Of a stretch of 64,000 bases of DNA, positions 21,752-38,511 are shown in pieces. The notes beneath the pieces are model-generated. The model did not search any database, was not told the origin of the DNA, and worked only from the letters and a program-made list of their open reading frames with translations. Made by a program: the position numbers and the translations under genes. Position 1 is the stretch's first letter. Every line of letters starts with the position of its first letter. Origin of the DNA: Colwellia sp. Arc7-635 (GTDB lineage: Bacteria > Pseudomonadota > Gammaproteobacteria > Enterobacterales > Alteromonadaceae); the NCBI RefSeq assembly GCF_003971255.1, contig NZ_CP034660.1:1488001-1552000 (forward strand). Direction: 5' to 3'.

Positions 21752-22303
21752 ATGAAAATATTTTTGCTTACCCATGAACGTGAAATACGTAGGGGCACCA
21801 ATACCGGTGCTATCGCTATAAAAGACGCTAATAATATTGTTGAACGTATACTCTGGGAAAGAATAAACCCTAATAAAGACCTGGTTCAATTAATAGAAAA
21901 CAATGAGGCGGTATTATTATATTCGAAGGAAGAACTGTCACCGACAGAAGCATCGGCTGAATTTTCGACTACACCGTTAATTGCATCATCAGCAGTATCA
22001 AAGGACGCTTCAAAGCTTAGGGCGAAGGTAATTTCAAAGGTAAGAATTGAAGCGTATGAAAACATCATTATTATTGATAGCACATGGCAAGAAGCCAATA
22101 AGATTTTTAACCAAAGCACTTATTTAAAAAATGCGCCGCAATTCACCCTGAAAACGACTAATGATTCTTTATATAAACTCAGGGCCAATCAACCTAAAGG
22201 TGGCTTATGCACTATCGAATGCATAATCGAAGTTTTAAAGCTAAAAGGTCAGGATAAACTGGCAGCAGAGTTATCATTAAAATTTGAAGAGTTTAATGGT
22301 TAA
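21752..22303 (+). CDS. DTW domain tRNA-uridine aminocarboxypropyltransferase
   Basis: A 183-residue protein of the DTW family. It shows LTHEREIRRGTNTG at the start, IIIDSTWQEANKIF (the DxTW signature, about 108-121) and the C-terminal LYKLRANQPKGGLCTIEC block that binds S-adenosylmethionine. Members (TapT/YfiP, human DTWD1/2) transfer the 3-amino-3-carboxypropyl group to uridine in tRNA. The N-terminal zinc-binding Cys cluster found in longer members is absent, so this is the short form. Stands alone upstream of the RiPP cluster. Confidence 0.85.
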   Translation: MKIFLLTHEREIRRGTNTGAIAIKDANNIVERILWERINPNKDLVQLIENNEAVLLYSKEELSPTEASAEFSTTPLIASSAVSKDASKLRAKVISKVRIEAYENIIIIDSTWQEANKIFNQSTYLKNAPQFTLKTTNDSLYKLRANQPKGGLCTIECIIEVLKLKGQDKLAAELSLKFEEFNG

Positions 22304-22329
22304 TTGCTTTGACAAAAAGAATGTTAAAC

Positions 22330-22398
22330 AGGCCACCCATGATAACTTTTTAAGGCTATCCAAAGTGTAATCGTACTGAAAATTATTATGGGTGGCCT
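22330..22398. repeat. Inverted repeat carrying the CCACCCATGATAA motif
   Basis: Arms AGGCCACCCATGATAA (22330-22345) and TTATTATGGGTGGCCT (22383-22398) match at 15 of 16 positions and enclose 37 bases. It may terminate the DTW gene, but the arm motif recurs near 37.65 and 38.15 kb, which suggests a repeat family. Confidence 0.6.
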
Positions 22399-22697
22399 GA
22401 CAAAAAGTGTGAATAGAGGCGTATTCTATGTCTCCTTGAAAAAAGTGAGCATAGGCTGAATTTATTCGATTTTGAATACTCATATTTCTGCTTAAGGCCT
22501 AAGTAACAGGCTAAATAATGGTTGGCTGTACATGCAATGATATTTACCATTATGCATACTAATTCACCAGCCAAATAATTACTTCACTAAAAGTATGGGT
22601 GCTTTTGGTTGACCAGAATACACTCTCGCGATATCTTTGTCAGAAAATAGTTCTAAACTCACTAAGAGTATGAATATTCAATGAGAATACTAAATTT

Positions 22698-23603
22698 ATG
22701 TCTACCTACAGAGCCTTTGGTTTAACGTTTGACAGCGATATTAAACTTCATCCTTTATTAACCTCAGATGAAGAGAATGCTGATGTGAAAATAGAGCTGT
22801 CTCAAGTATGTAAAACCGGGCTAGACAATCCGAGAACAGTAAAGCCTTATTGCCAAATAGCGAGCAATGAGCTTTGGCTTCAAATTCCGGACATTGCCAG
22901 GTTCTATGTTACAAATGGCAATAAAATCGTTGTTCAGCCCGAGGCGAATGCTGATATGCAAAGTGTCCGGTTATTTTTGCTTGGCTCTTGCATAGGAGCA
23001 ATTATGTATCAGCGTAACCGTCTGGTAATTCACGGTAATGCCATTCGTTTTGGTGATGGTTGTGTCATCTTCGCAGGAGCTTCAGGTAATGGTAAATCAA
23101 CACTGGCGGCGGCTTTTTATAAACGAGGTTATGAAATCCTAGCAGATGATTTATCTGTGATTGATGAATTTTGTCAAGTGCAACCCAGCTATCCACAAAT
23201 AAAACTTTGGCATGATACGGCCAAAAAACTGGATATTGATGTTTCACAGCTTAACCGTATTCGATTACAGGTTGATAAGTACGCTTACCCAATAAAAGAC
23301 GACTTCTGTGATATACCGCTTCCAGTTAAAGCTATTTATATACTCAATACACATAATAATAATGACTTTATTTTTGATCCTATCAAAGGTCTAGATAAAT
23401 TCAACCCCTTGAAAAATAATAGCTACCGAAGTAATTACATAGAAGGCTTGGGGCTTAAAGCTGCGCACCTTAAATTATGTGGCCTACTGGCAAATAATAT
23501 CGATATCATTCGAATTACGCGGCCCAATACTGGTTTTAAACTCGATGAGTTGGTTGAACTGATCGAAGCAGATATTAAACAGCGTGAGGAAAAGTCAGTA
23601 TGA
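22698..23603 (+). CDS. HPr kinase-like peptide kinase of the lasso cluster
   Basis: A 301-residue protein starting MSTYRAFGLTFDSDI, the usual opening of HprK-like kinases found in lasso-peptide clusters. It has a P-loop GASGNGKSTLAAAF (about 131-144) and YEILADDLSVI (about 149-159), equivalent to the HPr kinase active-site Asp pair; the HPr kinase N-terminal regulatory domain is absent. Studied relatives (PadeK, ThcoK, SyanK) phosphorylate the C-terminal Ser of lasso precursors. The precursor encoded at 26595-26771 ends in Ser, which fits. The gene overlaps the sulfotransferase start by 4 bases (ATGA), so the two are translationally coupled. Confidence 0.82.
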   Translation: MSTYRAFGLTFDSDIKLHPLLTSDEENADVKIELSQVCKTGLDNPRTVKPYCQIASNELWLQIPDIARFYVTNGNKIVVQPEANADMQSVRLFLLGSCIGAIMYQRNRLVIHGNAIRFGDGCVIFAGASGNGKSTLAAAFYKRGYEILADDLSVIDEFCQVQPSYPQIKLWHDTAKKLDIDVSQLNRIRLQVDKYAYPIKDDFCDIPLPVKAIYILNTHNNNDFIFDPIKGLDKFNPLKNNSYRSNYIEGLGLKAAHLKLCGLLANNIDIIRITRPNTGFKLDELVELIEADIKQREEKSV

Positions 23604-24499
23604 GTATTCAGCCAAATATTTACTGGCTCGCGTCTTACCCTAAGTCGGGAAATACCTGGACACGGGCGTTTATTGCCAACTTACTCAATGAAGAAACAGA
23701 GGCGGTCGATATCAATGCATTGGATACTGGTGCCATAGCTAGTGGCAGGGATTGGGTAGAAACTGCTCTCGATTTTGATATCAATGAGCTGTCTCACGAT
23801 GAGATTGATCGCTTGCGGCCAACGGCTTATCGCTGGCTTTCGCAGCAACTAGAGTCACCTGGTTACCATAAAATACATGATGCCTATACCTATTTGCCTA
23901 ATGGCGAAGCCTTGATCCCCATTGACACGAGCAAAGGGGTGTTATGCATTATTCGTAACCCGCTTGATGTGGCAATTTCCTTTGCGCACCATAATTCTTG
24001 TAGCATAGATAAAGCGATCGCCAATATGGCAAAGGCCGATTATGCTTTTTGTGCTCAGTCAAAACGTTATTATCCTCAATTGAGACAACGGCTACTTAGT
24101 TGGTCGGGGCATGTTCTTAGCTGGGCTAATGCGCCAGGCCTCAATAAACTGATCGTTCGTTATGAAGATATGAAGCAAAACTCAGTGGCGACGTTTTCTT
24201 GTATGGCGTCATTTTTAGAACTGCCCCATGACAAGAAGTCAGTTACAGAAGCTTTGGAACACTGCAAAATAGAAAAGCTTCAGGCTCAGGAAGCCGCATC
24301 GCCTTTTAAAGAGCGAGCAGCTAAATCAAAAAGTTTTTTTCGTAAAGGCCTAGTGGGTGACTGGAAAAATACTCTGACCGACAAACAGATAAACACCCTC
24401 ATCAATGATCATAGAAGCGTGATGCAGCGTTTTGGCTATTTAGATGCACAAGAGCAACCTTGTGAACATAGTAAAGAAGAAGAGGCCCTTAATGAGTAG
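23600..24499 (+). CDS. Sulfotransferase of the lasso cluster
   Basis: A 299-residue PAPS-dependent sulfotransferase. The 5'-phosphosulfate loop is YPKSGNTWTRAFIANLL (about 10-26), the 3'-phosphate site is CIIRNPLDVAISFAHH (about 116-131), and RKGLVGDWKNTL (about 248-259) is the conserved C-terminal RxGxxGDWK motif. It sits between the kinase and the cyclase with overlaps on both sides, so it belongs to the same operon. Tailoring of the peptide by O-sulfation is the simple inference; Ser, Thr or the phosphorylated tail could be acceptors. It could also act on a carbohydrate. Confidence 0.85.
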   Translation: MSIQPNIYWLASYPKSGNTWTRAFIANLLNEETEAVDINALDTGAIASGRDWVETALDFDINELSHDEIDRLRPTAYRWLSQQLESPGYHKIHDAYTYLPNGEALIPIDTSKGVLCIIRNPLDVAISFAHHNSCSIDKAIANMAKADYAFCAQSKRYYPQLRQRLLSWSGHVLSWANAPGLNKLIVRYEDMKQNSVATFSCMASFLELPHDKKSVTEALEHCKIEKLQAQEAASPFKERAAKSKSFFRKGLVGDWKNTLTDKQINTLINDHRSVMQRFGYLDAQEQPCEHSKEEEALNE

Positions 24500-26342
24500 C
24501 ATACATGCTTACATGGGCCAAAAAAATAGTGCTATTAATGATACATTACGCTCAATGCTTAAAGCCTCTGATTACTGGCAGCCATACAAGAAAACGAGCT
24601 GGATTTCAAACTTGCACACTCTTGGTCTAGCTAAAGCACAACTGTATAACACACTTAATTCCTTGAAAGATGGTGTGCATCATGATGCAGAGAACTGCTT
24701 GAGTATTACGGCTAATGCTCGAATAGATAATCGTAGTGAATTATTAATACAGCTAGAAATAAACCCTGACGAAGCCAGTATTCAAACAGACAGCCAATTA
24801 ATTTTACAAACCTATGTTAAATGGGGTAAAGAGTGCGTAAAACAGTTACGAGGTGACTTTGTCTTTATTATCTGGGATGAAGCACAACAAAAACTATTTT
24901 GCGCGCGTGATCACTTTGGTGTCAAAGTACTATTTTATTCACAGAATAAACAAAAAATTATGCTCAGTAATGAGCATAATGCTTTTTTTACTTCGGATTA
25001 TTGTGATCCGTCAAAAGTAGATGAAAAATGGCTGGTAGAAAATCTTTGGAATATAAGCCCTTTGGATTTTGACTCCCCAAATCCTGATATACATATTTTG
25101 CCGCCGGCCCATACACTTGAATTTGATGCCAACGGTATAAAACTGACCCGTTTCTGGCACCTTGAACGAAAAAACAGCTGGCAAAACCTTGACGATGAAG
25201 CGCTGATCGCAGAATTAAAAACACGTTTTAATAAGGCTGTGGTAGCGCGTTTAGACAGCCAATCTCCTTTGGGGGCAGAATTAAGTGAAGGTCTTGACTC
25301 AAACGGTATCGTTGGCGTTGCAGCACCGCACTTAAGACCTAACGTTATGCATACCTTTTCATATAAGTGTGAAGCGCTTAGCGAAAAAAATCAGCATATC
25401 TGGGGCGACACCTATAAAGACATTGAAGATATGCTCGCTATGCATGAAAACCTTCAAGCAACCTGGCAAGTGAGTGATCAAAAGCAACAAGAAAAACAAA
25501 CAGAGTTTGATTATCAAGTATTTTATCAAAATTTTGGCGCTGTTATCCCCATACAAGGTCCATTTTTAACGGCCCAACTGGCGCAAAAAAAGGGAGTGCA
25601 GGCTCTATTATCAGGCTGGGGCGGTGATCATTGTGTCACTTGCCCAGGCGATGAGTATGCAAATGAGCTATTTCGTCATGGTCGAGGCATTATGCTTTAT
25701 CGATTGCTGAAAGGTAAATATGAGCGAGGGCGAGGGCCACACCCTGTTCGTAGTATGGTCACCACAGCACTTAGCCAATTAGCACCCAAGCTGAACTTTT
25801 TTCTAAAAACTCGTCGGCCTTGTCTAGAAAAAGCTATGCAACAGCGTGGCCAAACACATTTTTTACATGAAAAATGGCAAAAACATTTTAAATTAGATCA
25901 AAACCTTGAGCGGTTTATTCGGCAATATCAGCGTTCAAGTGTTCAACAATATGAACTACGTGAATTATTTGAAATAGGTCTGACCAATCGTTTGACTCAC
26001 ACCGAGCTTATTGCTCGACAGTATCGTATTGAATACCGTTTCCCCATGCTTGATGTTGACCTAGTCGAGTTCGCTCATAGTTTACCTAGCGCCTTGAAAA
26101 TTCATAATGGCATTGAGCGTTATCCGTTTAGGCGATTGCTTGAAGGTATCACTACACCACGTATACAATGGCGACGAAAGAGCGACGTGAGTTATCCTAA
26201 TATTGATAGGGGGGCGCAGATATTAAGCCAAAACATTGCGCTTTTAGTTAAACTTAAAGATAACCCGCTCACTCTAAAGTACAGTAGTGATGAAAAGATA
26301 AAAAAACATATCGAAACTAACAGAAGGGGCTTGAAAATTTAA
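24492..26342 (+). CDS. Asparagine synthetase-like lasso cyclase (C protein)
   Basis: A 616-residue class B asparagine synthetase homolog with an N-terminal glutaminase-like domain (about 1-200; FVFIIWDEAQQKLFCARDHF and LLSGWGGDHC later in the synthetase domain) and a C-terminal AMP-forming domain. The start at ATG 24492 follows AGAAGAAGAGG and gives MSSIHAYMGQ: there is no Cys at position 2, so the glutaminase is inactive, as in lasso C proteins that adenylate an Asp/Glu side chain of the peptide. The ATP pyrophosphatase loop reads SEGLDS (about 266) where SGGLDS is usual. It overlaps the sulfotransferase gene by 8 bases. Late YRFPMLDVDLVEF and IQWRRKSDVSYPN match known cyclases. Ring closure is inferred from context. 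Confidence 0.82.
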   Translation: MSSIHAYMGQKNSAINDTLRSMLKASDYWQPYKKTSWISNLHTLGLAKAQLYNTLNSLKDGVHHDAENCLSITANARIDNRSELLIQLEINPDEASIQTDSQLILQTYVKWGKECVKQLRGDFVFIIWDEAQQKLFCARDHFGVKVLFYSQNKQKIMLSNEHNAFFTSDYCDPSKVDEKWLVENLWNISPLDFDSPNPDIHILPPAHTLEFDANGIKLTRFWHLERKNSWQNLDDEALIAELKTRFNKAVVARLDSQSPLGAELSEGLDSNGIVGVAAPHLRPNVMHTFSYKCEALSEKNQHIWGDTYKDIEDMLAMHENLQATWQVSDQKQQEKQTEFDYQVFYQNFGAVIPIQGPFLTAQLAQKKGVQALLSGWGGDHCVTCPGDEYANELFRHGRGIMLYRLLKGKYERGRGPHPVRSMVTTALSQLAPKLNFFLKTRRPCLEKAMQQRGQTHFLHEKWQKHFKLDQNLERFIRQYQRSSVQQYELRELFEIGLTNRLTHTELIARQYRIEYRFPMLDVDLVEFAHSLPSALKIHNGIERYPFRRLLEGITTPRIQWRRKSDVSYPNIDRGAQILSQNIALLVKLKDNPLTLKYSSDEKIKKHIETNRRGLKI

Positions 26343-26594
26343 GGTTTATGGTTGATTTTAGCTTTTATCATACGAAAATGTCTGATAAATAGAGTGCTGG
26401 GTGCAATGGCAGTGAATTAAGGTGAATGGCGTTTTTACTTTTAACGGGGTACTTATTCTTTTAACAATCCAATACCCCCGGATATTTCGTTCCCTTCTAC
26501 CTGACAACACACATTTCTTAGCTGACTTTTGATTTTGTTATATTCAGCGTGTATCGGGGAGTGTTTCTTGTTAATGAAGCAAGCAGCTGTATTT

Positions 26595-26771
26595 TTAACT
26601 TGGTCCACTAGTCCCGAATCCAGTTTCGGCTGGGGTATTAAAGGGTTTACCTTCTGCTCCACTCATATTTTTTTGTGCTAAATTATGTATTTTCGGTGAG
26701 CTCCAAACTTTTTTAGATGCTTTTACTGCGCTTCCAGATATGTCAGAGTTTTCATTATCATTTTTATTCAT
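26595..26771 (-). CDS. Candidate lasso-peptide precursor (A)
   Basis: A 58-residue peptide in the cluster, convergent with the cyclase gene. The leader contains KKVWSSPKIHNL, similar to the YxxPxL motif recognised by B1 proteins (Trp for Tyr, Ile for Leu). A possible core is GKPFNTPAETGFGTSGPS: an amide between Gly1 and Glu9 would give a nine-residue ring and a nine-residue tail ending in Ser, the residue phosphorylated by HprK-like kinases. Against this, position -2 would be Ala instead of the usual Thr. ATG at 26771 is chosen over TTG 26783; GAG lies 7 bases upstream. It is followed on its own strand by nothing, and lies 329 bases from the next gene, so it probably has its own promoter. Confidence 0.7.
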   Translation of the reverse strand: MNKNDNENSDISGSAVKASKKVWSSPKIHNLAQKNMSGAEGKPFNTPAETGFGTSGPS

Positions 26772-26783
26772 GTAATTACTCAA

Positions 26784-27099
26784 TTAAATTATTTTTTATG
26801 TGGAACGTAGATAATATACAAAAATTATATATTGTTTTTTCAACTATATGTTAACCTTAAATAATACACAAGTATTGAATATGAAATTGACGTGATTTTG
26901 ATGATAAAAAATTAAAACCCAAGCAATTATGCAAAAACATGTTGCTTTAGTTCCAGATAAGCCTTAAATAACAATGGGGGCTTGTTGGGATGCGAAATGA
27001 AACATGTTGAAGATTTAATTGAAGACTATAAGCTCAAAATTCGCTTGGCAGGATAATAGTCGCCGCTAAGGCCATACAATAGAGCGTTTGACCAACCTT
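26784..27099. other. Intergenic region upstream of the precursor gene
   Basis: Very AT-rich from 26784 to 26920; it should contain the precursor promoter (minus strand). A 19-codon frame at 27000-27059 (MKHVEDLIEDYKLKIRLAG) is present on the + strand but has no support as a gene. Confidence 0.5.
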
Positions 27100-30000
27100 T
27101 TAATCTGCCTGAGCACCCATCTTAGCGGTTCGCTTGATCAAATAACTTGTATTGGCAAAGAGCTCTCGCTTGAGTGTTGTACGTGATCCATCGGGCCAGT
27201 CAATATCAATATGTTGAACCCTGTCGTGATGGCCTAAGCCGAACCAAATGATAGGGGCATCGAAAGACAAATAACCGCCCCCCACTTTAAGTTCTTTTAT
27301 TTGCGCAAGCCCTTTTCCGTAGTGAATGGTTATTTTTGTTGCAATACCTGAATGATTGCCAAGCTGATCTTCTATCTGAAAAGCAATCGCTCGCGACTTA
27401 CTTCGGTTTGACTGTAGATCATTCTTATATAGCAGTAGATTATTGCTTATTGGTACTGCTATTAAATCTAAGTCGCCATCGTTATCCATATCCAAAAATG
27501 TACTGGCCGTTGTTGGCGAAAAATAAGTCAGTCCATAGTCTTCTGTTTTGTCGATAAACTGTCCAGTCGCATTATTTTCAAACAGCAAGTTAGAGCTGGT
27601 GAAGCTCTGAGTATTAACTCCCGTAACAGTATAGAGATCTTGCCATCCATCATTATTAACGTCGTTAAAGCGGGCGTTCCAGGTCCAACCTGTCGTTACT
27701 AAGCCAGTTGGTTTAGCAATTTCTTTATAAGACTGTGAAAATGGTTCAAGCGAATAAAGTATGTTTCTTTGAGTTTTTTGTTTGGGTTTGCCATTAGTTG
27801 TTTCTACTTTGGTAAATTCCCCCGTCTGCATACTCTCGCAAGTCTCTGCCATGCTAATCCACGGTGAAGGTAATTCGGTACATTTTTGTAGTTTAGATAG
27901 TGGAGTATGAGGGGTATATATTTTCCGATACACTGAATAAGCAATACAATCACCCTGATCTAAAGGGGAAGCAAGCGAAAGGCATGCACTTTCTCCTACT
28001 AGGCCGCTTAATTGACTCACTTGTCTCATTTCCTGTATATTATGGCAATTTTGTTTGTCTTGTTCATCTATTAGTCTTTCACAGGATCTTTCCGGCGCTA
28101 ATTTAACTAAGCCGCTCGACATTGAATTGCCACTAATTTGTGCCCACAGTAGGTCAAAGGTTAAGTCATTGTTGATATCGGCACTGTCAATACTCATGGT
28201 TGTTAGTGTTGTATAGGGAAATAGGTCCTCTGCTAAATAAAAATGAAATTCATTATTATCAAAGCGACCTAAAAGTACTGTATCAGGGACAGCGAAGTCA
28301 TTGCCAATAATTAGATCTAGCAAGCCATCTTGATTAATATCCGACAAAAGGGTGCTTAACGTTTCGCCTGGTATCCCAGGAAGAGCTATGGGTTTAAATA
28401 CGGGATCTGTGCCGCCATTATTTAGCCATAGATAATTCGTCGACTGGGATGTAGAGATGGAATTTACGCCATGAGAATAACTTCCCTGTATTATATCCAG
28501 ATCACCATCTCGGTCAACATCACCAAAGGCTAAAGCTGATGCGTAAAAGTCAGTCGTTGTTGGTAAAGGCCGTTCAAAGTCCACCGTAAAGTTACCTTGG
28601 TCACTATAATGAATTTTAAGCCCCTGCTTAAATGTTGATGTGACGATATCTAACCAGCCATCATTATTTAAGTCAGCTAGGGCAGCATTAAATAAGGTAG
28701 ATTGATCTTCACCTAAATGATCAATTTTTTGTTGTGAGAATCTTTGCCCAGCGATATTGATATAAAGACTAAGGTAACCATTCTGAGTCACTAAGATATC
28801 TGGCCAGCCATCATTATTAATATCTCCAGCTGCAACACTGCCCAGTTGAGAATATGGAAGCATATTTACTTTCAGGTAGTTTGCTAGAGGAGAGGGGGGG
28901 GGCAAACCAGCTTTGGCTGCATTTACCTGATGAAAAAGGGGCGTTTTATTGGCCAATGTTTGTGGCTGTTTTTTTGAAAAAGGCCGTGAATATATTTCCA
29001 AATTTGTTGACGTAGCTTCACTCAAAGAAACTTTTTTGGTAGGCTGCCATTGAAGTTCTTTACCTTTGGTGAGTGTTCTAATTTCATCAATACTTACTCC
29101 TTCATTATAATTGGGGAGAATTCGTTTTAGCTGTCCTAATTCTTCAATCTGTGAGAATGCTTGCTGATTTTTTACCTGAATAGTATATGTTTCCCAAAGG
29201 TGAGCAGTAATACCCGCGCTTACCCCTAAAATAACAACAATCGCGTATAATATTAACGCGGCTTTTCGGCCCATTGTTTGCCAAATAATTGAAAAAGAAT
29301 AAATGCTAAAAATGCCCAGAGTAAAGAGTAATATCATGGCGAATTTAACCGGCATCCCCAAAGCCGTCAACGTTGCTACAATAATTAGGTCGAAAGCAAT
29401 AGGCACGGGTAGAAACACACCAAATACGGCTAGCCCTAACATTGCTGCTACCAAACTAAAATAACCTGACGGTTTCAGAAAAGTAACAACGGTTTCCCAA
29501 GGTACTAGCGTAATTAAGGTCGCGCCAAGCAAACCCGCTAATAGCATTAATGGCACCGTTTTAACTACAATAAATCTGAGTTGTTTAAAATAAGTACCAA
29601 CAAACCATGTAGTTGCTGCAAACCAGCTTATGTTCAGATAAGGAGGAGAGGTGATTTTAGAGCTTACCCTAGAAGAAACGTGACAATCCACAGTATTAAT
29701 ACCCGAAAATGCAGTAACAGACTGCTCGGGTAGCACATAACGAACAAACAAAGGCACAACGATTAATATTAACAATAGGGTAAAGGCGATTTTAGTCAGT
29801 GCTATATAGAAGGGAAATAATGTAAATAGCATAGATAAAACAATCACGTTTAAAGTAGGAGAACTTAACATCGTTGCTAGCGTAGTTTCATTGCGCATCC
29901 CTGTTGTGTGTAGGGCTTTTGCTATTGGCGCCGCGCAATTTACACAGACCCCCAAAGGGGCTCCCAGAAACACTCCGAACAAAGTATTCGACATGCGCCC

Positions 30001-30312
30001 CTTAAACTCTCGACGCTGAACTAATGAAAATAAAGTCATCAGACCCGCAGCGAGTAATAATCCAAAAAACATTCCTTTTTGGTTAGTTGATACCCAATTT
30101 AGGGTGGTATAAAAAATGGTTTGAACCAAAGAAAAGGTAGATTCAAGGGTAAATGCTGCTTCAAACCCAAGTGGATCTTCAAGGGTCATGTCACCGCCCA
30201 TAACGGCTTTATCATTGAGTGATGGGTAGCGAGAGCCGTTCCAAAATGTTATAGAGACAATCAATAAGAACAATAGAGAAATCAGAATTCGACGATCTTT
30301 AATTAACAGCAT
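27100..30312 (-). CDS. Permease fused to FG-GAP propeller and UnbV/ASPIC domain
   Basis: A 1070-residue fusion. The first 375 residues are a DUF318/ArsP-like permease with about nine membrane segments; CVNCAAPIAKALHTTGMR (about 118-135) and SPTLNVIVLSMLF are its core motifs. The rest is a predicted extracytoplasmic module: seven calcium-loop repeats of the FG-GAP/VCBS type (DINNDGWPDI about 497, then DLNNDGWLDI, DVDRDGDLDI, DINQDGLLDL, DINNDLTFDL, DVNNDGWQDL about 886, DMDNDGDLDL about 944), which suits a seven-bladed propeller, and a C-terminal ASPIC/UnbV domain (about 970-1055, with WFGLGHHDRVQHIDIDWPDG). It lies between the precursor and the ATP-grasp gene. I know of no described protein of this layout in lasso clusters. 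Confidence 0.8.
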   Translation of the reverse strand: MLLIKDRRILISLLFLLIVSITFWNGSRYPSLNDKAVMGGDMTLEDPLGFEAAFTLESTFSLVQTIFYTTLNWVSTNQKGMFFGLLLAAGLMTLFSLVQRREFKGRMSNTLFGVFLGAPLGVCVNCAAPIAKALHTTGMRNETTLATMLSSPTLNVIVLSMLFTLFPFYIALTKIAFTLLLILIVVPLFVRYVLPEQSVTAFSGINTVDCHVSSRVSSKITSPPYLNISWFAATTWFVGTYFKQLRFIVVKTVPLMLLAGLLGATLITLVPWETVVTFLKPSGYFSLVAAMLGLAVFGVFLPVPIAFDLIIVATLTALGMPVKFAMILLFTLGIFSIYSFSIIWQTMGRKAALILYAIVVILGVSAGITAHLWETYTIQVKNQQAFSQIEELGQLKRILPNYNEGVSIDEIRTLTKGKELQWQPTKKVSLSEATSTNLEIYSRPFSKKQPQTLANKTPLFHQVNAAKAGLPPPSPLANYLKVNMLPYSQLGSVAAGDINNDGWPDILVTQNGYLSLYINIAGQRFSQQKIDHLGEDQSTLFNAALADLNNDGWLDIVTSTFKQGLKIHYSDQGNFTVDFERPLPTTTDFYASALAFGDVDRDGDLDIIQGSYSHGVNSISTSQSTNYLWLNNGGTDPVFKPIALPGIPGETLSTLLSDINQDGLLDLIIGNDFAVPDTVLLGRFDNNEFHFYLAEDLFPYTTLTTMSIDSADINNDLTFDLLWAQISGNSMSSGLVKLAPERSCERLIDEQDKQNCHNIQEMRQVSQLSGLVGESACLSLASPLDQGDCIAYSVYRKIYTPHTPLSKLQKCTELPSPWISMAETCESMQTGEFTKVETTNGKPKQKTQRNILYSLEPFSQSYKEIAKPTGLVTTGWTWNARFNDVNNDGWQDLYTVTGVNTQSFTSSNLLFENNATGQFIDKTEDYGLTYFSPTTASTFLDMDNDGDLDLIAVPISNNLLLYKNDLQSNRSKSRAIAFQIEDQLGNHSGIATKITIHYGKGLAQIKELKVGGGYLSFDAPIIWFGLGHHDRVQHIDIDWPDGSRTTLKRELFANTSYLIKRTAKMGAQAD

Positions 30313-30358
30313 TTAATTTTAATAAACCTAATCGCGATGTAATTATTTATTGATAAAG

Positions 30359-30386
30359 AACCCTATCTTTAGGTAAAAATAGGGTT
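30359..30386. terminator. Hairpin between ATP-grasp and permease-fusion genes
   Basis: Arms AACCCTAT (30359-30366) and ATAGGGTT (30379-30386), 12-base loop. On the minus strand only a weak T-rich tail follows, so it may act as an attenuator that separates the biosynthetic genes from the fusion gene. Confidence 0.4.
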
Positions 30387-30426
30387 GTTGGGCCGTACTA
30401 ACTAAAAACTATTTGAGAGTTTAATC

Positions 30427-31647
30427 TTAATTTATCGACAGCGGAATATACCCAATAAGCTGATGTGGCGCAACCCCCCAGTTTATATTACCTTCGATGA
30501 GTTTAACGCCTAAAGGGGTGATCGCCAGATCCCAACCAATGCTATTAATATCAGTAAAGTGACAGTGTGCTTTTTCTGCGATACTGACAACATCAGGCCA
30601 TAAAGGTAAATTAAAGTTAGCTAGTGATTTAATAAGCTGTTGTGCATTTTTGTCTAAATAAAGGTATTGTTCGGGCATATCCAATAAGGTGCCTTTTTCT
30701 AGTTCTATGCCAATTGGTATGGTTCGATTGAAGGATGCCATAACAGGTACTTCTAATAATGCAGAAACTAATTTTGGCTTACCTTCATTAAGCTTGGTAA
30801 TTAAACGAAGGGTGACTAATTCATCGCATTGACAGCGATCTGTTATTAAAGAATGGTTTTCCAGCAAGGGTTGGATTAAATAATGTTGCTTTGACGCTAC
30901 CTGCCCTATAATCGCTTGAATTTGTACTTGGGTTAGTCCTTCACCAACGTTGTTTCCATACAAATGATATTGTTCTGTTTCTGCATGATAGCTTAAGGCA
31001 TAACAGCCTTCTTTTCGGCTGCCACATTCCGGTTTGAGAAATAAAGACTGCCGATTGAATAGTTGCTGTTCAGTAATCCTGCCTCTTTTAACATCTATTA
31101 CACTTGGAATAGTGGGTAAACCGAGCCGTTTCATTTCAAGCGAAAAATCATGCTTGTGTGACATTAAGTGTTGGCTTCGTGCACAGATATTGGGCGACAT
31201 CATATGATGCCAATGAGGAAGTTCGTGAGTATAAATGAAGTTGAGCCACTCACGTTCAGAGAAACGATGTAGTTGATATTGATAATAAAAATGTGGTGGT
31301 ATGCTATGCAACAGGGCGAGGGCAGCTAAACTTTTCAACTGCTGCCAAGGAGAGATGCCTTGTTCATTAAAAAGCACCTTGCTTCGGTTTTTCCAAGTAA
31401 GATAAACCTGTCGCCAAGCGTAATAAAGGTACCATGTTGTATAGCTATACAGGGCTATCAGACACCAGAGTATTCTTGGATAATCTGCCCACGCACTTAA
31501 GAATGTTTTACGATGCAAGTGCACCATACGATTTTGCTTAGGGAGTAAATAGCGCCAACTTAAAATAGCGTGAGGCACCTGTCGTTTGATTATTCGCTGA
31601 TGAATTTTTTGCCAATTTCCTATCATGCGTTTTAGCTTGCCTTTCAA
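30427..31647 (-). CDS. Sugar-transfer-associated ATP-grasp family protein
   Basis: A 406-residue protein. The N-terminal 130 residues are basic with one hydrophobic segment (about 55-75, ILWCLIALYSYTTWYLYYAW). From about 185 an ATP-grasp domain of the ATPgrasp_ST type follows: FLKPECGSRKEGCYALSY (ATP-binding loop), HYLIQPLLENH, DELVTLRLITKL and near the end FTDINSIGWDLAITPLGVKL then EGNINWG (metal-binding Glu/Asn). Members are linked with polysaccharide and peptide biosynthesis loci; ligation of a carboxyl to an amine or hydroxyl is the family chemistry. The gene overlaps the ABC transporter stop by 4 bases, so it belongs to the lasso operon. Confidence 0.78.
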   Translation of the reverse strand: MKGKLKRMIGNWQKIHQRIIKRQVPHAILSWRYLLPKQNRMVHLHRKTFLSAWADYPRILWCLIALYSYTTWYLYYAWRQVYLTWKNRSKVLFNEQGISPWQQLKSLAALALLHSIPPHFYYQYQLHRFSEREWLNFIYTHELPHWHHMMSPNICARSQHLMSHKHDFSLEMKRLGLPTIPSVIDVKRGRITEQQLFNRQSLFLKPECGSRKEGCYALSYHAETEQYHLYGNNVGEGLTQVQIQAIIGQVASKQHYLIQPLLENHSLITDRCQCDELVTLRLITKLNEGKPKLVSALLEVPVMASFNRTIPIGIELEKGTLLDMPEQYLYLDKNAQQLIKSLANFNLPLWPDVVSIAEKAHCHFTDINSIGWDLAITPLGVKLIEGNINWGVAPHQLIGYIPLSIN

Positions 31648-33419
31648 TATTGTTGCAACTTTATTTTGTCGCTAGTAACTTCAAGCGGGGCGCTGCTATT
31701 ATTGGCTTTTTCTAAGTATATACGCTTATCGGCATGGGCTATGGTAGTTTCGCGGTGGGCAATAATGAGAATGGTTAATGTTCCCTGAAGTTGCTCCAAA
31801 GACTGTTGTATTTTTTTCTCAGTTTGGTGATCTAAGGCGCTTGTTGCTTCATCAAGTATCAATAGTTGAGGCTCCGTCAGTAGTGCGCGAGCCAAAGCTA
31901 ACCGTTGCCTTTCTCCTCCAGAGAGCTTAATGCCTCTATCACCAATAAGCGTGTCTAAGCCCTGAGGCAAGCAGCTTACAAAATCATCAGCTGCCGCGAG
32001 TTGAAGTACGCGCCATAAATCAGCATCTGTGAGTTGCTTCGGTGTGACCCAGCTGAGATTAGCCCTTATCGAGTCATGAAATAAGTACACTTCTTGTGTG
32101 ACGTAAGCGATACTTTTGCGCCAGGCAATTCTATTTTTTCCTTCAAGTGGTAAATCATCACTCAAAATTTGGCCTTTGCTTGGTTCTATCAAGCCAGCGA
32201 TTAAATCTGCTAATGTTGACTTACCTGCACCAGAATGACCAACTAGGGCGACGGTTTCGTTTTTTTTAATTTTTACTGACAGGTTATCAATTACATAAAC
32301 GTCTTTTTGAGGGTAGTGAAAACTCACGCTTTTTAGCTGTATATTATGCTGCATCTTCGGGATTTCGATATTACTTGCGACAGGCTCTTCTGCATTTTTA
32401 CAGGCAGTTTTCATTTCGTTAATATCATTAAAGGCCGGCACTTTATATAGCAGTTGTTGATAAGTCTTTTGTAAGCTCGATAGTTGTGGCAATAGCCGTG
32501 AAAAAATGATCAACAGCAGCAGAATCGTTGCCAAGGGCATTGCTAGCAGGTTTTTTGCTACGTAAAAAAACACACTGAAAGCGATTACCGAGCCTACCAT
32601 ATAGAGCCACTGTGTCATTGCATTCATACGAGAGAATTTTAATTGCTGTGCTTCTAGTGTTTGGCTGACTTGCTGCATTTGTTTAGCATGATAGCTTTCA
32701 CTGCCATAGACTTTGATCATTTTAAGGCTGGCTAACTGTTCAGTTAGCATTTTAAATATTGATTTAAAATTCAGTAATTCTTTTTGCCCTGTACCATAAA
32801 TAAGTCGATTAAAAGGGAGTAGTAACGAGAATAACATCGTCGCGAACACGGCAGCTAATAGTGTCATTTTCCATGATAACAATAGTACTAGCCCGACCAT
32901 AACAATAGTTAGTATCATTTGGCTTAGTAGTGTTAGCATCAAATTAGAAGCATGAGCAATCGAATGTACTTGACTTGATAAGCAATGAATGAAGTTTGAC
33001 ATTTTATTTTCAACTATAAACTGCCAACGACTGTGTAATAGACCTCGATAGAGACTATCTCTCAAGTGGGCAATATAGCGCTGTTGTACTTGTGTAGTCA
33101 TGACGCTCAATTGGTAACGGAGTGTGGCAATCACAGCGATGATGATGATATAGCTCAATAATATATTCGTGAGATTCGCTGTAAGCCCTATGAGATTAAA
33201 TACCTGATAAGCGGTATCAGAAATACTTGTACTACTTACTACGCCCATATCAATACCGACAATTTGCAGTAAAGGAATAATAAACAGCAGACCAATGCCC
33301 GCAGTAACTCCCTGAATAAGCATTAAGCTTAATATGAGTGATTGTTTTTGCGGGGAAAAAAGATAAAAGGCCTTAAACTCTCGCCATAGGCTAAATGTTT
33401 GATTTTTATTCATGATCAT
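31644..33419 (-). CDS. ABC transporter (D protein), lasso peptide exporter
   Basis: A 591-residue half-transporter with fused permease and ATPase. Six membrane segments lie in residues 25-320. The nucleotide-binding domain has Walker A GHSGAGKSTLADLIAG (about 388-403), Q-loop YVTQEVYLFHD, signature LSGGERQRLALARAL (about 496) and Walker B LLILDEATSALD (about 518). There is no N-terminal C39 peptidase domain, as expected when a separate B2 protein removes the leader. It overlaps the B2 gene by 14 bases and the ATP-grasp gene by 4 bases. In lasso systems D exports the mature peptide and gives self-immunity. Confidence 0.87.
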   Translation of the reverse strand: MIMNKNQTFSLWREFKAFYLFSPQKQSLILSLMLIQGVTAGIGLLFIIPLLQIVGIDMGVVSSTSISDTAYQVFNLIGLTANLTNILLSYIIIIAVIATLRYQLSVMTTQVQQRYIAHLRDSLYRGLLHSRWQFIVENKMSNFIHCLSSQVHSIAHASNLMLTLLSQMILTIVMVGLVLLLSWKMTLLAAVFATMLFSLLLPFNRLIYGTGQKELLNFKSIFKMLTEQLASLKMIKVYGSESYHAKQMQQVSQTLEAQQLKFSRMNAMTQWLYMVGSVIAFSVFFYVAKNLLAMPLATILLLLIIFSRLLPQLSSLQKTYQQLLYKVPAFNDINEMKTACKNAEEPVASNIEIPKMQHNIQLKSVSFHYPQKDVYVIDNLSVKIKKNETVALVGHSGAGKSTLADLIAGLIEPSKGQILSDDLPLEGKNRIAWRKSIAYVTQEVYLFHDSIRANLSWVTPKQLTDADLWRVLQLAAADDFVSCLPQGLDTLIGDRGIKLSGGERQRLALARALLTEPQLLILDEATSALDHQTEKKIQQSLEQLQGTLTILIIAHRETTIAHADKRIYLEKANNSSAPLEVTSDKIKLQQY

Positions 33420-33894
33420 TTAATAACGATGGTGAAACAAAAGAGCTGACAATACCAAACGCTTGGAGACCACCACCACCGATGATCACCCAGGAGCCAA
33501 CTTTAACCCAAGCGTGTGCTTTTAAAGGTTCTCCTTCTTCATGGGTCATTCGTGCACCAATATGTAATACGTAAGGTATTTTGTAATACCCAAGCAGGGT
33601 TCTTGCCATAGCTGCTTGAACCAAGCATTTCGCTTCCCACGGTGTAGCACGTGTTGCTAGTTCCACGATACGTCCAATACGCCAAGCGAGCATACGTTGT
33701 TGTTCCGTTACGACTGTAGATAGCGTGCGGTTTTGGTAGTATCCTCCTAAACATTTTGACAGTATTCGGAAAGGAAAAATATACATAGATGCTCGAATAA
33801 TACCACTATAAGGATACAAGAAAAGTAACCACATTTTTTCTTTTAGTGGTAAACGCCACGCGCTACCCATCTTCCTAATAAATTGATAAGTCAC
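33406..33894 (-). CDS. Lasso peptide leader peptidase B2 (transglutaminase-like)
   Basis: A 162-residue transglutaminase-fold cysteine protease of the lasso B2 family. The catalytic Cys is in WEAKCLVQAAMARTLL (about 89) and the His in KAHAWVKVG (about 127), with ILGYYKIPYVLHIGA between. The N-terminal third has a short hydrophobic stretch (about 20-38) often seen in B2 proteins. It lies 6 bases after the PqqD-like gene and overlaps the ABC transporter gene. Proteobacterial lasso systems more often have B1 and B2 fused as a single protein; here they are split. Confidence 0.88.
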   Translation of the reverse strand: MTYQFIRKMGSAWRLPLKEKMWLLFLYPYSGIIRASMYIFPFRILSKCLGGYYQNRTLSTVVTEQQRMLAWRIGRIVELATRATPWEAKCLVQAAMARTLLGYYKIPYVLHIGARMTHEEGEPLKAHAWVKVGSWVIIGGGGLQAFGIVSSFVSPSLLNDHE

Positions 33895-33900
33895 TATTAA

Positions 33901-34179
33901 TCAGTTTACTATATCAATGACTTTTTGTTCGTCCATAGAGTTTAAAAACGTAAAGATATCTTCTAAGCATTGTTCTTTTGTTACGTCAAATTCTTCTAGT
34001 AATTGCTCACAAATTGCTTTGATCGTCTGAGGTTTTTCAATTAATTCCCAAACTCGACTAGCGACCGTATCTAGACCATAATAGGCGCCATTTTCGATAC
34101 TCATCATCACTAACTCACCATCTATTACTACTTCAACAATACCTTCAGTTCTTTTTATGGTCTTATTTATATTTAACAC
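33901..34179 (-). CDS. PqqD-like leader recognition protein B1
   Basis: A 92-residue PqqD-family RiPP recognition element: EVVIDGELVMMSIENGAYYG forms the beta strands (about 16-35), followed by LDTVASRVWELIEKPQTI and a helical end with EEFDVTKEQCLEDIFTFL. These proteins bind the leader peptide and deliver the precursor to the B2 protease. The 6-base gap to B2 and the order B1-B2-D are those of kinase-containing lasso clusters. The 188-base gap to the upstream Wzz-like gene may hold a promoter. Confidence 0.9.
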   Translation of the reverse strand: MLNINKTIKRTEGIVEVVIDGELVMMSIENGAYYGLDTVASRVWELIEKPQTIKAICEQLLEEFDVTKEQCLEDIFTFLNSMDEQKVIDIVN

Positions 34180-34367
34180 TTATTTAATCCTAAAATTTCG
34201 ATTACTATGCTAATCAACATATTACTATTAATAGCATATCATATGCTTATAATCTCTCAAGTTTTTAGACTAACTACCTCGATACCTAAACCAACAATCA
34301 TCGTTTGCTTGAAGTCTTTAAGGTAACTTAATCTCTGAATAAATAAGTTCACGATTATTTCTCGGTA

Positions 34368-35240
34368 TTAAATAATATTGGAGGCAGTATTTTCAAGTTT
34401 TTTGTTTGGCTTCTTACTTACTACTATAAATAAAAACACAAGAAACACAGAAAGTAGAAGCACTAAAACAATCAAAAAAGGACTGAGTTTAAAAATAGGC
34501 TCTTCAGCTATATAAGCTAGAGATAATACTTTAAATTGTCGAGCCGAAGGACCTGATTCACTATTCATTGATGTCAGCATTGACTCGTACTGCGCAATTA
34601 AATCTTGTTGTATAGATACATAACGAATTTCGTTATTCAATCGTTGTAATCTGTTCAGTTCATCTAGCTTTATACGCTCAAGTTCATCGGCAATATAGTT
34701 ATCAGCAAAGTTAATATAATCATTTACTATCTGTGCTGCAATAACAGGGCTTTTCCAAGTAAACTTAATCGTAATTACATTATTATTTTTGTCATAATTT
34801 ATTTTAAAACGTTGATTCAGACTTTTAACCGCCTTCGCCAAAGATGGCTCACCTTTATTATTAGTATCTCGCCAACGTAAATTTTCACTATCCCATTTAT
34901 CTTCAAATAACAACTTTTTAAGGTCGTATTTTATAATAAACTGCTTAGTTAGTTGCACACTTTGTAGTTGAGCTAATTTTTCATGAGTAGTTGTTATTCT
35001 CTTTTTCTGTTTTTGTTGATTCATTGACCAGATTAAACGGCGAGCGCTTCTTTCCATTTTTCTTAAAGCAGATCTATCTAAATTACCTACACTTTCGACT
35101 ATCGGGTAGATAGTGGCAGTTGTTTCATATTTAGGTGTTAAATTTATTAGAAAGACAACCAATATGCATAAAAGTAGAGGTATTACTATCAACTTAAGCC
35201 AATCTTTATAAGTAAATTTAAAACCTAACGTTATTTTCAT
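34368..35240 (-). CDS. Wzz-like chain length determinant family protein
   Basis: A 290-residue inner-membrane protein with two membrane segments (about 16-33 and 258-277) and a periplasmic helical domain between them, the Wzz/polysaccharide co-polymerase layout. TPKYETTATIYPIVE after the first segment and NRLQRLNNEIRYVSIQQDLIA in the coiled-coil part support this. There is no cytoplasmic tyrosine kinase domain. It is encoded 2 bases after the nucleotidyltransferase gene. In a RiPP cluster this is unexpected; it may point to a surface polysaccharide link or may be an unrelated passenger. Confidence 0.65.
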   Translation of the reverse strand: MKITLGFKFTYKDWLKLIVIPLLLCILVVFLINLTPKYETTATIYPIVESVGNLDRSALRKMERSARRLIWSMNQQKQKKRITTTHEKLAQLQSVQLTKQFIIKYDLKKLLFEDKWDSENLRWRDTNNKGEPSLAKAVKSLNQRFKINYDKNNNVITIKFTWKSPVIAAQIVNDYINFADNYIADELERIKLDELNRLQRLNNEIRYVSIQQDLIAQYESMLTSMNSESGPSARQFKVLSLAYIAEEPIFKLSPFLIVLVLLLSVFLVFLFIVVSKKPNKKLENTASNII

Positions 35241-35242
35241 AC

Positions 35243-36382
35243 TTAGAGAAATTTCCGTTTAAAGGCTAAAAATGGACGAAGAGGATAGATTATGAACAAC
35301 CATTGAGGCGATAAACGATTAACACTGGAATAATCTAAAATAGTAGGTTGCAGCTTACATAACAACATATCTCTTTTGTATTTAGAGCTTTTAAACAAAA
35401 AAATTTCAAATAGGTGGCGTTTAATGGCAAAGCTTCCTGAATTAACATAAGCAGGATTGTCCATCCCCTGTAAACAGGTTTTAATCATCGCTCGACACAG
35501 CCAATCTTTTTTATAAAAAGTGGTCGCTTTATCCGGTAGCGGAGTTTGGTAGATAGTTGCCAATAAATATAAACTGCAAACAATAATACGAGCTCTGTCC
35601 TCAGAAAATAAACTGCTATCATCAAAAGTATTTTCAAGCTGTTCATTATAAAGCTTAATATCGATTAACCATTTTAAACGATGAAATAAAGTATGTGAAC
35701 CGTGCCAGCAAAGATAGAAGAACTCATCACTAGCTAGCTCTGTTTGGAAAAGCGTATCTCTATTTTTTAGCTCTTTTTGATAAATACTCATCTCATGAAC
35801 TATAGGGATAGATAGTTCTAGATGAAGTTCTATTAAAAGTCCTTCTTGATTGGTATAGCCTATATCTTTGTGTACTTTGAAATACACATTTCGCCATTCA
35901 TCATCTAAAGCGTCAAACTCATGAGCATAAAACCCCATACTGTTTAGTATGTGATTGGCTTGTTCTAAGTCCGACTTGGATATTAATACATCGATGTCAT
36001 TATTATTTCTTAGTGCAATATCACAGTATAGTAACTTAGATAGAGAAAGCCCTTTAAAAAAATGAATTGGAATATTTCCAGCCTGAAATAACTGATTTAA
36101 CTTAGCGCAAATAACAAGTTGCTTAGTGTTTCTCGTCATATTTTTAATATATTTATTTTTTAGATAAAGTAAAAACGAGGAAGGCACTTGCTTAATAAAA
36201 TGTTGACGGATATTGTGATATACGCAAGGGTGAGTACGATGCTGTGTTATTAATGTTTGTAAACGCTCAAAATCTGCTTTTTTTAATAAGGATGAAGTGG
36301 CATTCACTTCAGCAATAGATAATTGAGGCAGGCTTAGCAAAGCTACTGCCTGTAATTCAACGCTGATATTATTGTATTCCAC
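35243..36382 (-). CDS. Nucleotidyltransferase family protein (lasso N-type)
   Basis: A 379-residue NTP_transf_5-type nucleotidyltransferase. The core is IPIHFFKGLSLSKLLYCD then RNNNDIDVLISKSDLEQANHIL (about 105-145; Asp-x-Asp metal-binding pair in NDIDVLI), and HKDIGYTNQEGLLIELHLEL gives the third acidic position. A helical C-terminal domain follows. Homologs occur in kinase-containing lasso clusters, such as PsmN of the pseudomycoidin locus, where the protein is linked to further modification of the phosphorylated tail. It is the most upstream gene of the minus-strand series. Confidence 0.8.
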   Translation of the reverse strand: MEYNNISVELQAVALLSLPQLSIAEVNATSSLLKKADFERLQTLITQHRTHPCVYHNIRQHFIKQVPSSFLLYLKNKYIKNMTRNTKQLVICAKLNQLFQAGNIPIHFFKGLSLSKLLYCDIALRNNNDIDVLISKSDLEQANHILNSMGFYAHEFDALDDEWRNVYFKVHKDIGYTNQEGLLIELHLELSIPIVHEMSIYQKELKNRDTLFQTELASDEFFYLCWHGSHTLFHRLKWLIDIKLYNEQLENTFDDSSLFSEDRARIIVCSLYLLATIYQTPLPDKATTFYKKDWLCRAMIKTCLQGMDNPAYVNSGSFAIKRHLFEIFLFKSSKYKRDMLLCKLQPTILDYSSVNRLSPQWLFIIYPLRPFLAFKRKFL

Positions 36383-37059
36383 TTATTATACTACTCTGAA
36401 AAGTAACTACTGTTGCTATGTTTAGTTAACAGCAGCTAGCATACCACTATAGCTTTAAATAGATGATTATTTTTTACTAGAAAAGTAAAATTACAATCGA
36501 TGAAACAAAAGTTTTTTTGAAGGATAAAATATTTAAAGAAGCAGACGGAGATGTTCAGCCGAAGATCATTGGAGAGCAACTGGATAATTTACCTTTGATT
36601 GGATTGCTCCGCGTACTGATTTAGTAAAAAATATAATTCGCTAATGCTAAGTAATTATACGTAGTACTCAAATAAAGAATTTGAAAGCATAGAGTTAGCT
36701 AAATTACGTGATTGGCTAATACCTATATAAATGAACGGACAAGTAACTGTTAAAGGCGAATAAAAAATATAACATCAACCAATACGGTTAGATGAACAAT
36801 CAGGCGTTTTTATTTTCAATCTACCTAAACTAATAGGTTGTCTTTTTAAAAGTATAGCGACCTATAGGCCTTTACATTGCTGCTAATCCAATTCATTAAT
36901 GTTTACTGTTGGCCTATAAGGAACAGCTTGTTAGGATAAATTATTGGTTGATTTATATACAAGGACGTTAAATGGCAGAGCTGTATCCATCAAAGTAGTT
37001 TTGTAGAAATGTATACAATGTATTTTTGATTCAATACTTTGAAAAAATAATATTAATTT
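36383..37059. other. Decayed intergenic DNA upstream of the lasso operon
   Basis: Short broken frames only, apart from the hsdS tail at 36671-36763. A frame at about 36495-36620 (with FLKDKIFKEADGDVQPKIIG) looks once-coding but is interrupted. The promoter of the minus-strand operon should lie just above 36382. Confidence 0.5.
36671..36763 (+). pseudogene. Remnant of a type I restriction specificity subunit (hsdS) 3' end
   Basis: The translated stretch reads ELAKLRDWLIPI, a stop, then MNGQVTVKGE and a second stop. This is the characteristic C-terminus of HsdS proteins (consensus LRDWLLPMLMNGQV). A single base change (TTA to TAA) explains the internal stop, and nothing else of the gene is left in frame upstream. 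It marks an old type I restriction-modification locus. Confidence 0.7.
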
Positions 37060-37641
37060 TCCTTTAGATCTTCATGCGATAAAAGAAAAACAAGTTGATG
37101 TTATATTTTAAGCTTTTTTAACTTTAGATGATGATACTAGCCATAAAATTCAATCAGACTTTCAAAAAATTCATGCTTTATCCACGGATGCAGGCATTAT
37201 TTCATTAATTGAAGAAGCTAAAGAGTTTGAAAATCATCAGTTTATTGATAGTTTCAAGGGATTTCTGGTTTACATGGTAAAGCAATGTGGGCGTTTCTTG
37301 ATAGCTATGAATATTGGCAAGGTGCGTCAATGTTATATCAAACTAGGATCATTCCTTCGTAATTTTGGACAAAAATAAATCAACCACCAGAATTAGATCA
37401 TCCTTTTACAGGTAGCGATATTGAATTGTTACCTCAAGCGATAGATGAATACTTTTTTAAAAACGAAGGTTGTGGTAAATAATGTAAAATTGATCACTAT
37501 AAGCGTGGGGAAAATGATTACTTTTTTGCTTTCATTGAAGATTTTACGAAAACAGCCGTTGAGTGGGTTGATAATGACTTTTATCTCTTTTCAAACCGAC
37601 AGGCGAGCCTCATTTTCCTTCAACTACAGACCTACACTTAA
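37060..37641 (+). pseudogene. Decayed gene of unknown family
   Basis: Coding-like text runs along the + strand but is broken. From 37060 LDLHAIKEKQVDVIF is followed by a stop; then TLDDDTSHKIQSDFQKIHAL runs to about 37262, where the frame shifts. In the new frame HGKAMWAFLDSYEYWQGASM, a stop, INQPPELDHPFTGSDIELL, a second stop, and HYKRGENDYFFAFIEDFTK then AVEWVDNDFYLF follow to 37641. In all, three in-frame stops and one frameshift. The family is not recognised. Confidence 0.65.
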
Positions 37642-38400: not shown

Positions 38401-38511
38401 ATTGGTTAATAGTTTTGTTAACTTTGTCATTTTGGAGTACCGCAATTTGACCGGTTTATCTGGTACTACTTGCTGTACTACTAAAAAGCGTAGATTTCAA
38501 AGAATGGGTAT

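Follow-up and report, generated by a model that had tools for sequence, protein, structure and literature searches.

A kinase-bearing lasso-peptide cluster with a paired sulfotransferase gene on an inserted stretch of the Colwellia sp. Arc7-635 chromosome

In lasso peptides, the N-terminal amine is joined to an Asp or Glu at core positions 7-9, closing a ring. The closest described relatives of the locus reported here are clusters in which a kinase accompanies the lasso genes. Paeninodin-type clusters (Paenibacillus PadeK/ThcoK; Sphingobium SyanK) combine, as far as the available text describes them, a split B with C, D, an HPrK-like kinase and a precursor ending in Ser, and lasso kinases are reported in the sections consulted to phosphorylate the precursor C-terminal Ser before folding (PMC9266682, PMC8498205). 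The pseudomycoidin cluster of Bacillus pseudomycoides pairs such a kinase with a nucleotidyltransferase, reported to put a hexose on the phosphate (PMC8498205), and its accessible account names a phosphoglycosylated product and no sulfotransferase. The locus considered here lies at positions 22,698-36,382 of a 64,000-nucleotide stretch (the window; bases 1,488,001-1,552,000) of the 4.74-Mb single-contig genome of Colwellia sp. Arc7-635. It shares with the paeninodin type all of the components named, including a kinase of the same motif, and with the pseudomycoidin cluster the kinase and nucleotidyltransferase, but it differs from both in having a sulfotransferase, which directly follows the kinase, and from the paeninodin type also in an ATP-grasp protein, other genes and a phylum other than that of Paenibacillus. 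Judging from sequence comparisons, it is a lasso cluster on a probably acquired stretch, whose peptide would probably be phosphorylated at its C-terminal Ser and then receive a sulfate at the tail end.

A preliminary description of this DNA had proposed a split-B lasso-peptide cluster, and this was borne out: the ten genes and a small precursor open reading frame (ORF) were recovered where it had placed them, all cluster ORFs are intact, and both B proteins exceed curated cut-offs. B1, a PqqD-like leader-binding protein or recognition element (RRE; 33901-34179, minus strand), reached 84.0 bits against NF033536 (cut-off 80) and matched the solved chains 9x90, a lasso PqqD family chaperone, and 5v1u (TbiB1). 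The leader peptidase B2 (33406-33894, minus strand) scored 76.2 bits against NF033537 (cut-off 33), with Cys90 and His127 conserved in all 8 aligned sequences, whilst D, an ATP-binding cassette (ABC) exporter (31644-33419, minus strand), was recognized by profile matches. By its gene content the locus is a real lasso-peptide cluster, a variant within the kinase-tailored kind.

The best NCBIfam match of C, the predicted macrolactam synthetase (24492-26342, plus strand), was the lasso cyclase model NF033535, at 281.5 bits and thus below the cut-off. In AsnB, the glutaminase residue Cys2 is needed for glutamine hydrolysis; C starts MSSIH and lacks it, whereas the asparagine synthetases of its own genome start MCGI and MCSI. 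A tree of 39 sequences comprised ten asparagine synthetases, two of them from this genome, and 29 lasso-side rows, 28 of which came from lasso-type loci (one from a Priestia plasmid, where it adjoins a precursor annotated as paeninodin-family) and the last from locus L021. The preliminary description had singled out the placement of C relative to true asparagine synthetases as a test of the lasso assignment, and C separated from all ten references, the split between the two groups having a support of 100/100. L021, entered as an asparagine synthetase but starting MSAIL, was placed on the lasso side, and a smaller tree with three asparagine synthetases agreed. Window C was sister to the C of a Cellvibrionaceae metagenome-assembled genome (MAG; 100/98) within a clade of six Pseudomonadota (100/100), and was distant from that of the paeninodin-family locus of Priestia. 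An ordinary asparagine synthetase is ruled out by the trees and the missing N-terminal Cys, and an XrtA/PEP-CTERM polysaccharide amidotransferase was also rejected (score 131 bits, cut-off 817). Trees and alignment identify window C as a lasso cyclase.

The precursor gene (26595-26783, minus strand) starts with TTG, with an alternative ATG at 26771. Its leader (26652-26783) carries the motif WSSPKI, of WxxPxI type, which fits the lasso leader consensus [Y/W]xxPx[L/V/I/A/F/Y] given in the available part of PMC13381572. The predicted core, GKPFNTPAETGFGTSGPS (26598-26651), divides as GKPFNTPAE-TGFGTSGPS, in which the Gly1 amine and Glu9 would allow a nine-residue ring and the last residue is Ser (...TSGPS), the most frequent target of known lasso kinases. 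A loose precursor pattern occurred 1.65 times per shuffled window, and the precursor ORF alone therefore means little; a stricter pattern, written after the window had been seen, did not occur in 60 shuffles. Precursor-like ORFs do accompany homologous gene sets elsewhere, a point that had been set beforehand as a further test, and matching precursors were found in Cellvibrionaceae, Rheinheimera and Mariprofundus relatives. The predicted core frame is supported by the matching cores of L032 (AKDFPNPDE-GTFSSGPS, after KSE), L030 (GKPFSFVE-SFGSGPS, after NTE) and L029 (GKPYVDATE, GKTFVDPTE, the latter after GTE, and GKFFKTATE, each followed by a long tail that ends in YGPS).

Precursors of sulfotransferase-bearing loci were also compared at their last residue. 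With a pattern blind to that residue, 10 of 10 precursors, from nine loci, end in Ser or Thr; outside this count stand the precursors of L032, L051, L069 and L074, the third of L029 and four of the five of L043, for which the patterns used the last residue, together with that of L033, which was found by its likeness to the window precursor. No precursor was obtained for L026 and L027. Among kinase loci lacking a sulfotransferase, 11 of 15 residue-blind matches judged by eye to be precursors end in Ser or Thr. In the sequences compared, the C-terminal Ser/Thr is clearly the one hydroxyl position common to the sulfotransferase-associated precursors. Two other precursor types were seen. A zetaproteobacterial cluster (L034, 11759-12439) with a kinase, nucleotidyltransferase and ATP-grasp protein, and no sulfotransferase match, encodes three precursors whose cores are strongly basic (GKKRVRRKE-RNKRVGS and similar). 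In three Bacteroidales precursors (L031, L035, L036), Asn follows Thr(-2)-x, and the ring would start at Asn1 (nine residues) or at the next Gly (eight residues).

A GTDB-wide scan with window C matched at least 591 stretches, of which at least 521 were confirmed, and the best 80, ranked by likeness to window C, were kept. Omitting L028, which is near-identical to L027, and adding the window gave the 80 loci counted here. A kinase match was present in 76 (two of them weak), a sulfotransferase in 16, a nucleotidyltransferase in 42 and an ATP-grasp protein in 6, window included. The preliminary description held that kinase-bearing lasso clusters are known mainly from Bacillota, which fails against loci from Cyanobacteriota, Pseudomonadota, Bacteroidota, Acidobacteriota and Chloroflexota, among others; by title, 30 of these best 80 loci are cyanobacterial and 20 are from Mesorhizobium, and there is thus nothing unusual about kinase-bearing lasso clusters beyond Bacillota.

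The HPr-kinase-like gene (22698-23603, plus strand), predicted to encode a lasso tailoring kinase acting on the precursor C-terminal Ser, gave weak matches to HprK_rel_A and Hpr_kinase_C. Its product carries the motif H-x14-G-x2-G-x-GKS-x15-DD with spacing exactly as published for lasso kinases, and H112, G127, S129, G132, K133, S134 and D150 are invariant in 15 aligned kinases. The predicted structure has a phosphoenolpyruvate carboxykinase-type fold; the 50 matches listed in a structure search (VIA-align) were all phosphoenolpyruvate carboxykinases, alone or as part of a complex, with no HPr kinase among these.

The sulfotransferase gene (23600-24499, plus strand) overlaps the kinase gene by 4 bp, and its product scored 104.8 bits against PF00685 (cut-off 22). 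In SULT enzymes, the corresponding residues bind 3'-phosphoadenosine-5'-phosphosulfate (PAPS) or act in catalysis: K15, S16 and T19 correspond to the 5'-phosphosulfate-binding (5'-PSB) loop, R119, S127 and R248 to the 3'-phosphate-binding (3'-PB) site, and H93 to the catalytic His. All seven are invariant in 19 of 19 sequences. This gene had been viewed as an addition in the Colwellia cluster, a view that does not hold, as its place downstream of the kinase is conserved in other loci. In 15 of 15 loci showing both genes, from three phyla, the kinase immediately precedes the sulfotransferase on the same strand, the gap ranging from -127 to +108 bp, with a 4-8 bp overlap in ten; the -127 bp value probably reflects start-codon choice. 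L026 was counted as sulfotransferase-bearing, and its kinase is not visible because the contig begins inside the sulfotransferase gene. No sulfotransferase match was found in 61 of the 76 kinase loci. As the kinase is often alone and the sulfotransferase is found with a kinase, the sulfotransferase in lasso clusters seems to need the kinase. In favour of sulfation, the L026 contig (Porticoccaceae) encodes an adenosine-5'-phosphosulfate (APS) kinase directly after C (2804-3412; PF01583, 240 bits), placing PAPS supply beside lasso genes, APS kinase being the enzyme that makes PAPS; in the Colwellia genome an APS kinase is present elsewhere. In L032, the closest relative, the cluster adds two 2-oxoglutarate-Fe(II) oxygenases, an Asp/Asn hydroxylase and a second sulfotransferase (6713-7324, 11883-14805).

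A profile of 19 sulfotransferases was run against 398 genomes of the phylum, with flanks of 1.5 kb, and retrieved 26 places in 22 genomes, 16 with an adjacent kinase (15 upstream). The kinase was upstream at all of the 13 best-scoring places, four of which (own genome, G438, G488 and G615) had contributed to the profile, either themselves or through near-copies, and was adjacent at 3 of the 13 weaker ones. Each of the 16 kinase-adjacent places had a C, B1 or B2 match within the flank, one of them by a weak C match only. When 72,556 plasmids were searched with the window sulfotransferase, five places in four records were found; the best place of each record has a kinase directly upstream (4 of 4), and a lasso B2 is present in two of the four.

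The two remaining plasmid records, from Tistrella mobilis (L121, 7949-9873; L124, 7000-8837), hold the pair near WxxPxL peptides ending in Ser, and perhaps serve linear phospho/sulfo peptides or depend on lasso genes elsewhere in the genome. They bear on the idea that the Colwellia genes might form a linear phospho-peptide system and not a lasso system. Linear polyphosphorylated peptide (LPP) clusters of Bacillota, in the available part of PMC13381572, share with the window an RRE, an HPrK-like kinase, a nucleoside triphosphate (NTP) transferase and an MsbA-like exporter, and the Tistrella pairs have no lasso B2 anywhere on their plasmid records. LPP clusters are, however, described there with a signal-peptidase-like protease and without a macrolactam cyclase, whereas the window has a B2 peptidase, C and a Gly-x7-Glu core, which makes a linear system here very hard to credit.

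The genes and their families, the conserved residues, the likeness of precursors, the linkage of kinase to sulfotransferase and the insertion can be read from sequence. For the favoured phosphorylated and sulfated lasso peptide, we infer a course in which B1 would bind the leader motif WSSPKI, the kinase would phosphorylate the C-terminal Ser before folding, B2 would cut before Gly45 of the precursor, and C would join the amine of Gly45 (core residue 1) to the Glu9 side chain around the tail. The sulfotransferase would add a sulfate at the phosphorylated tail end and D would export the product. Sulfate is placed at or near the phosphorylated end because of the shared C-terminal Ser/Thr and the one-sided dependence of sulfotransferase on kinase. 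The favoured acceptor is a sugar, which the nucleotidyltransferase may link to the phosphate; a tail Ser/Thr ranks second. This nucleotidyltransferase (35243-36382, minus strand) scored 163.5 bits against PF14907 (cut-off 31.2), a family to which PsmN presumably belongs, and is taken to be of PsmN type. It is present in 13 of 16 sulfotransferase loci compared with 29 of 64 without one (Fisher p 0.012, a value that ignores relatedness), and this, together with the hexose of pseudomycoidin, invites the guess, but no more than a guess, that a sugar is sulfated. Tyr sulfation as the general task of the sulfotransferase was rejected for this cluster, since the cores of the window, L030, L032 and L063 hold no Tyr, and it is excluded for the window peptide. 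The order of kinase then sulfotransferase, with the one-sided pattern, makes for a testable claim on reaction order and site; as the short core has one Lys, no Tyr and hydroxyls at T6, T10, T14, S15 and S18 only, mass spectrometry could place the groups. The monoisotopic masses calculated for the window peptide are 1732.8056 for the lasso, 1812.7720 with phosphate, 1812.7625 with sulfate, 1892.7288 with both, 1974.8248 with phosphate and hexose, and 2054.7816 with phosphate, hexose and sulfate, the phosphate and sulfate forms lying 9.5 mDa apart.

More generally, the kinase and sulfotransferase might constitute an obligate two-step writer in which a C-terminal phospho-Ser/Thr, bare or sugar-bearing, accepts sulfate in at least three phyla, although we put this forward tentatively and consider it somewhat doubtful. 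If true, the tails of such lasso peptides would be capped by a mixture of phosphate, sugar and sulfate, a modification not seen in the lasso literature searched.

A pseudomycoidin-like outcome, with phosphorylation and perhaps phosphoglycosylation only, would leave the sulfotransferase with some other substrate, for instance a surface polysaccharide. The nucleotidyltransferase, the Wzz-like membrane protein (34368-35240, minus strand; a weak TIGR03007 match below cut-off) and the ATP-grasp protein (30427-31647, minus strand; PF14397), a sugar-transfer-associated type and possibly a further tailoring enzyme, are what such an outcome might look like, and L030 lies amid genes that by eye resemble polysaccharide genes. 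It is nonetheless unlikely, given the position of the kinase directly before the sulfotransferase in all 15 loci showing both and the manner in which sulfotransferase distances parallel those of the kinase, C and B1: pairwise distances correlated at r = 0.94 for kinase and 0.915 for C (15 loci, 5000 permutations, p 0.0002), a correlation that is due in part to host relatedness.

Several observations weigh against the reading of a phosphorylated and sulfated lasso peptide. No product is known from the cluster, and both C and the kinase score under their family cut-offs. The exact kinase motif occurs in 12 of the 15 sulfotransferase-adjacent kinases and is not found in L030, L031 and L069, and four of the 15 by-eye precursors from kinase loci without a sulfotransferase do not end in Ser or Thr. 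The characterized lasso kinase BsfK acts on core Ser3 and not the C-terminus, according to the accessible text of PMC10368454. The kinase-sulfotransferase pair stands without a lasso B2 on the record in the two Tistrella plasmids; of the 26 sulfotransferase-family places, ten have no kinase within 1.5 kb, and these are probably other sulfotransferases, whilst at L150 the kinase is downstream. In the leader, the window Trp is at -18 compared with -15 in L029, L030 and L032, the stretch between Trp and core being three residues longer, and a core starting at Gly45 puts Ala at -2 in place of the usual Thr. Thr(-2) is described as conserved in lasso leaders, with Ile and Val as rare exceptions and Ile in BsfA (PMC10368454, in the part available). 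A cut after Ser41 was rejected; it would bring Trp to -15 as in the relatives, but would leave no Asp or Glu at core positions 7-9.

These leader differences could mean that the cluster is decaying, or that the product is mis-cut, with B2 not cutting where predicted, and the restriction of a strong C match to this one genome among 17 of the genus would suit such an account. The ORFs, however, are all intact, the Cys and His of B2 are kept, and L032 is likewise without Thr at -2, having Ser, so that decay or mis-cutting seems improbable. The Ala(-2) of the window and Ser(-2) of L032 offer further substitutions for work on B2 specificity.

At a threshold of E 1e-60, C was matched in its own genome alone of 369 sampled from the class, and at E 1e-35 in 13 of 398 genomes of the phylum, own included. 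Two of the 16 congeners gave weak local matches (L002, L003), which fall among the asparagine synthetases in the tree. No relative of C was found in the viral contigs searched, nor in the plasmids searched with C as query at E 1e-40. The cluster lies in a 17.6-kb insertion (21109-38688) that is absent at this site from four of five congeners examined. In these four (G001, G003, G008 and G009) the flanking alignments are 20-47 bases apart, ending near window position 21,108 (21,069 in G009; 21,151 in G008) and resuming at 38,689 (38,697 in G008). In the fifth, G005, about 10.5 kb separates the flanks; it includes an integrase-like ORF and others that, judged by eye, resemble phage genes. Nothing left of about 19.8 kb in the window aligned to the congener stretches (matches over 150 bases), so that the left anchor of the insertion is one gene. 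GC content is mosaic (sulfotransferase 0.442, Wzz-like 0.309), and the inserted stretch was probably acquired horizontally. The site, between a leucine-rich-repeat (LRR) protein-kinase gene and a multidrug and toxin extrusion (MATE) gene (L111, L112, L113, L114, L118), is possibly an integration hot spot. A DTW-domain gene (21752-22303) inside the insertion seems to have moved with it or been displaced, because its best matches in G003, G005 and G009 are far from the MATE gene. Outside the insertion, 16340-18166 encodes a 608-aa alpha/beta-hydrolase-domain protein.

In L032, a homologue of the Wzz-like protein, 24% identical to it, adjoins the nucleotidyltransferase. An ArsP-type permease fused to FG-GAP repeats and an UnbV/ASPIC domain (27100-30312, minus strand) is probably incidental to the cluster: 8 other genomes of 274 had a match, and five homologue places (four stretches of 17-20 kb and one of 4.8 kb) held no C, B1 or B2 match, leaving a lasso-specific role unsupported. 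The lasso cluster of a relative, L029, has a differently built FG-GAP fusion, its FG-GAP/ASPIC C-terminus being attached to an NQR2/RnfD-type membrane part (13055-15931). A window-like fusion in L165 (8251-11469) lies amid genes resembling those for nonribosomal peptide synthetases by eye, beside a sulfotransferase-profile match. The lasso clusters of L032 (Cellvibrionaceae MAG, 4002-5668) and L033 (Pleionea, 5240-6833) each include three tail-collar-like genes, one tested (PF07484) and the rest assigned by eye, and a GNAT gene (tested in L033).

In a literature search that covered mainly openly accessible papers, no sulfated lasso peptide was found in print. None appears in the available part of PMC9484694, a 2022 review on lasso modifications contains no word beginning 'sulf', and 'sulfotransferase' is absent from the text of a 2026 review; for papers on the host genera, 'lasso peptide' did not occur among the matches listed. 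The bsf cluster of Bradymonas sediminis (PMC10368454), to the extent of the accessible text, resembles the window in a kinase of the same motif, a nucleotidyltransferase, a residue other than Thr at -2 and a neighbouring FG-GAP repeat protein, but differs in that BsfK acts on core Ser3, BsfA ends in Asp and has Ile at -2, and no sulfotransferase is among the genes listed. The presence of sulfotransferases in lasso clusters was itself noted before: in the portions consulted, a 2014 survey of anaerobes mentions enzymes such as HPr kinase and sulfotransferase in some clusters (PMC4289311), and a 2021 review (PMC8498205) refers to a gene for a putative sulfotransferase in clusters of Firmicutes. 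There, both tailoring genes are mentioned in passing, mainly for Gram-positive organisms or Firmicutes, with no pairing or product stated. What differs here is the conserved pairing of kinase and sulfotransferase in lasso clusters, observed in a member of the Pseudomonadota and in loci of three phyla.

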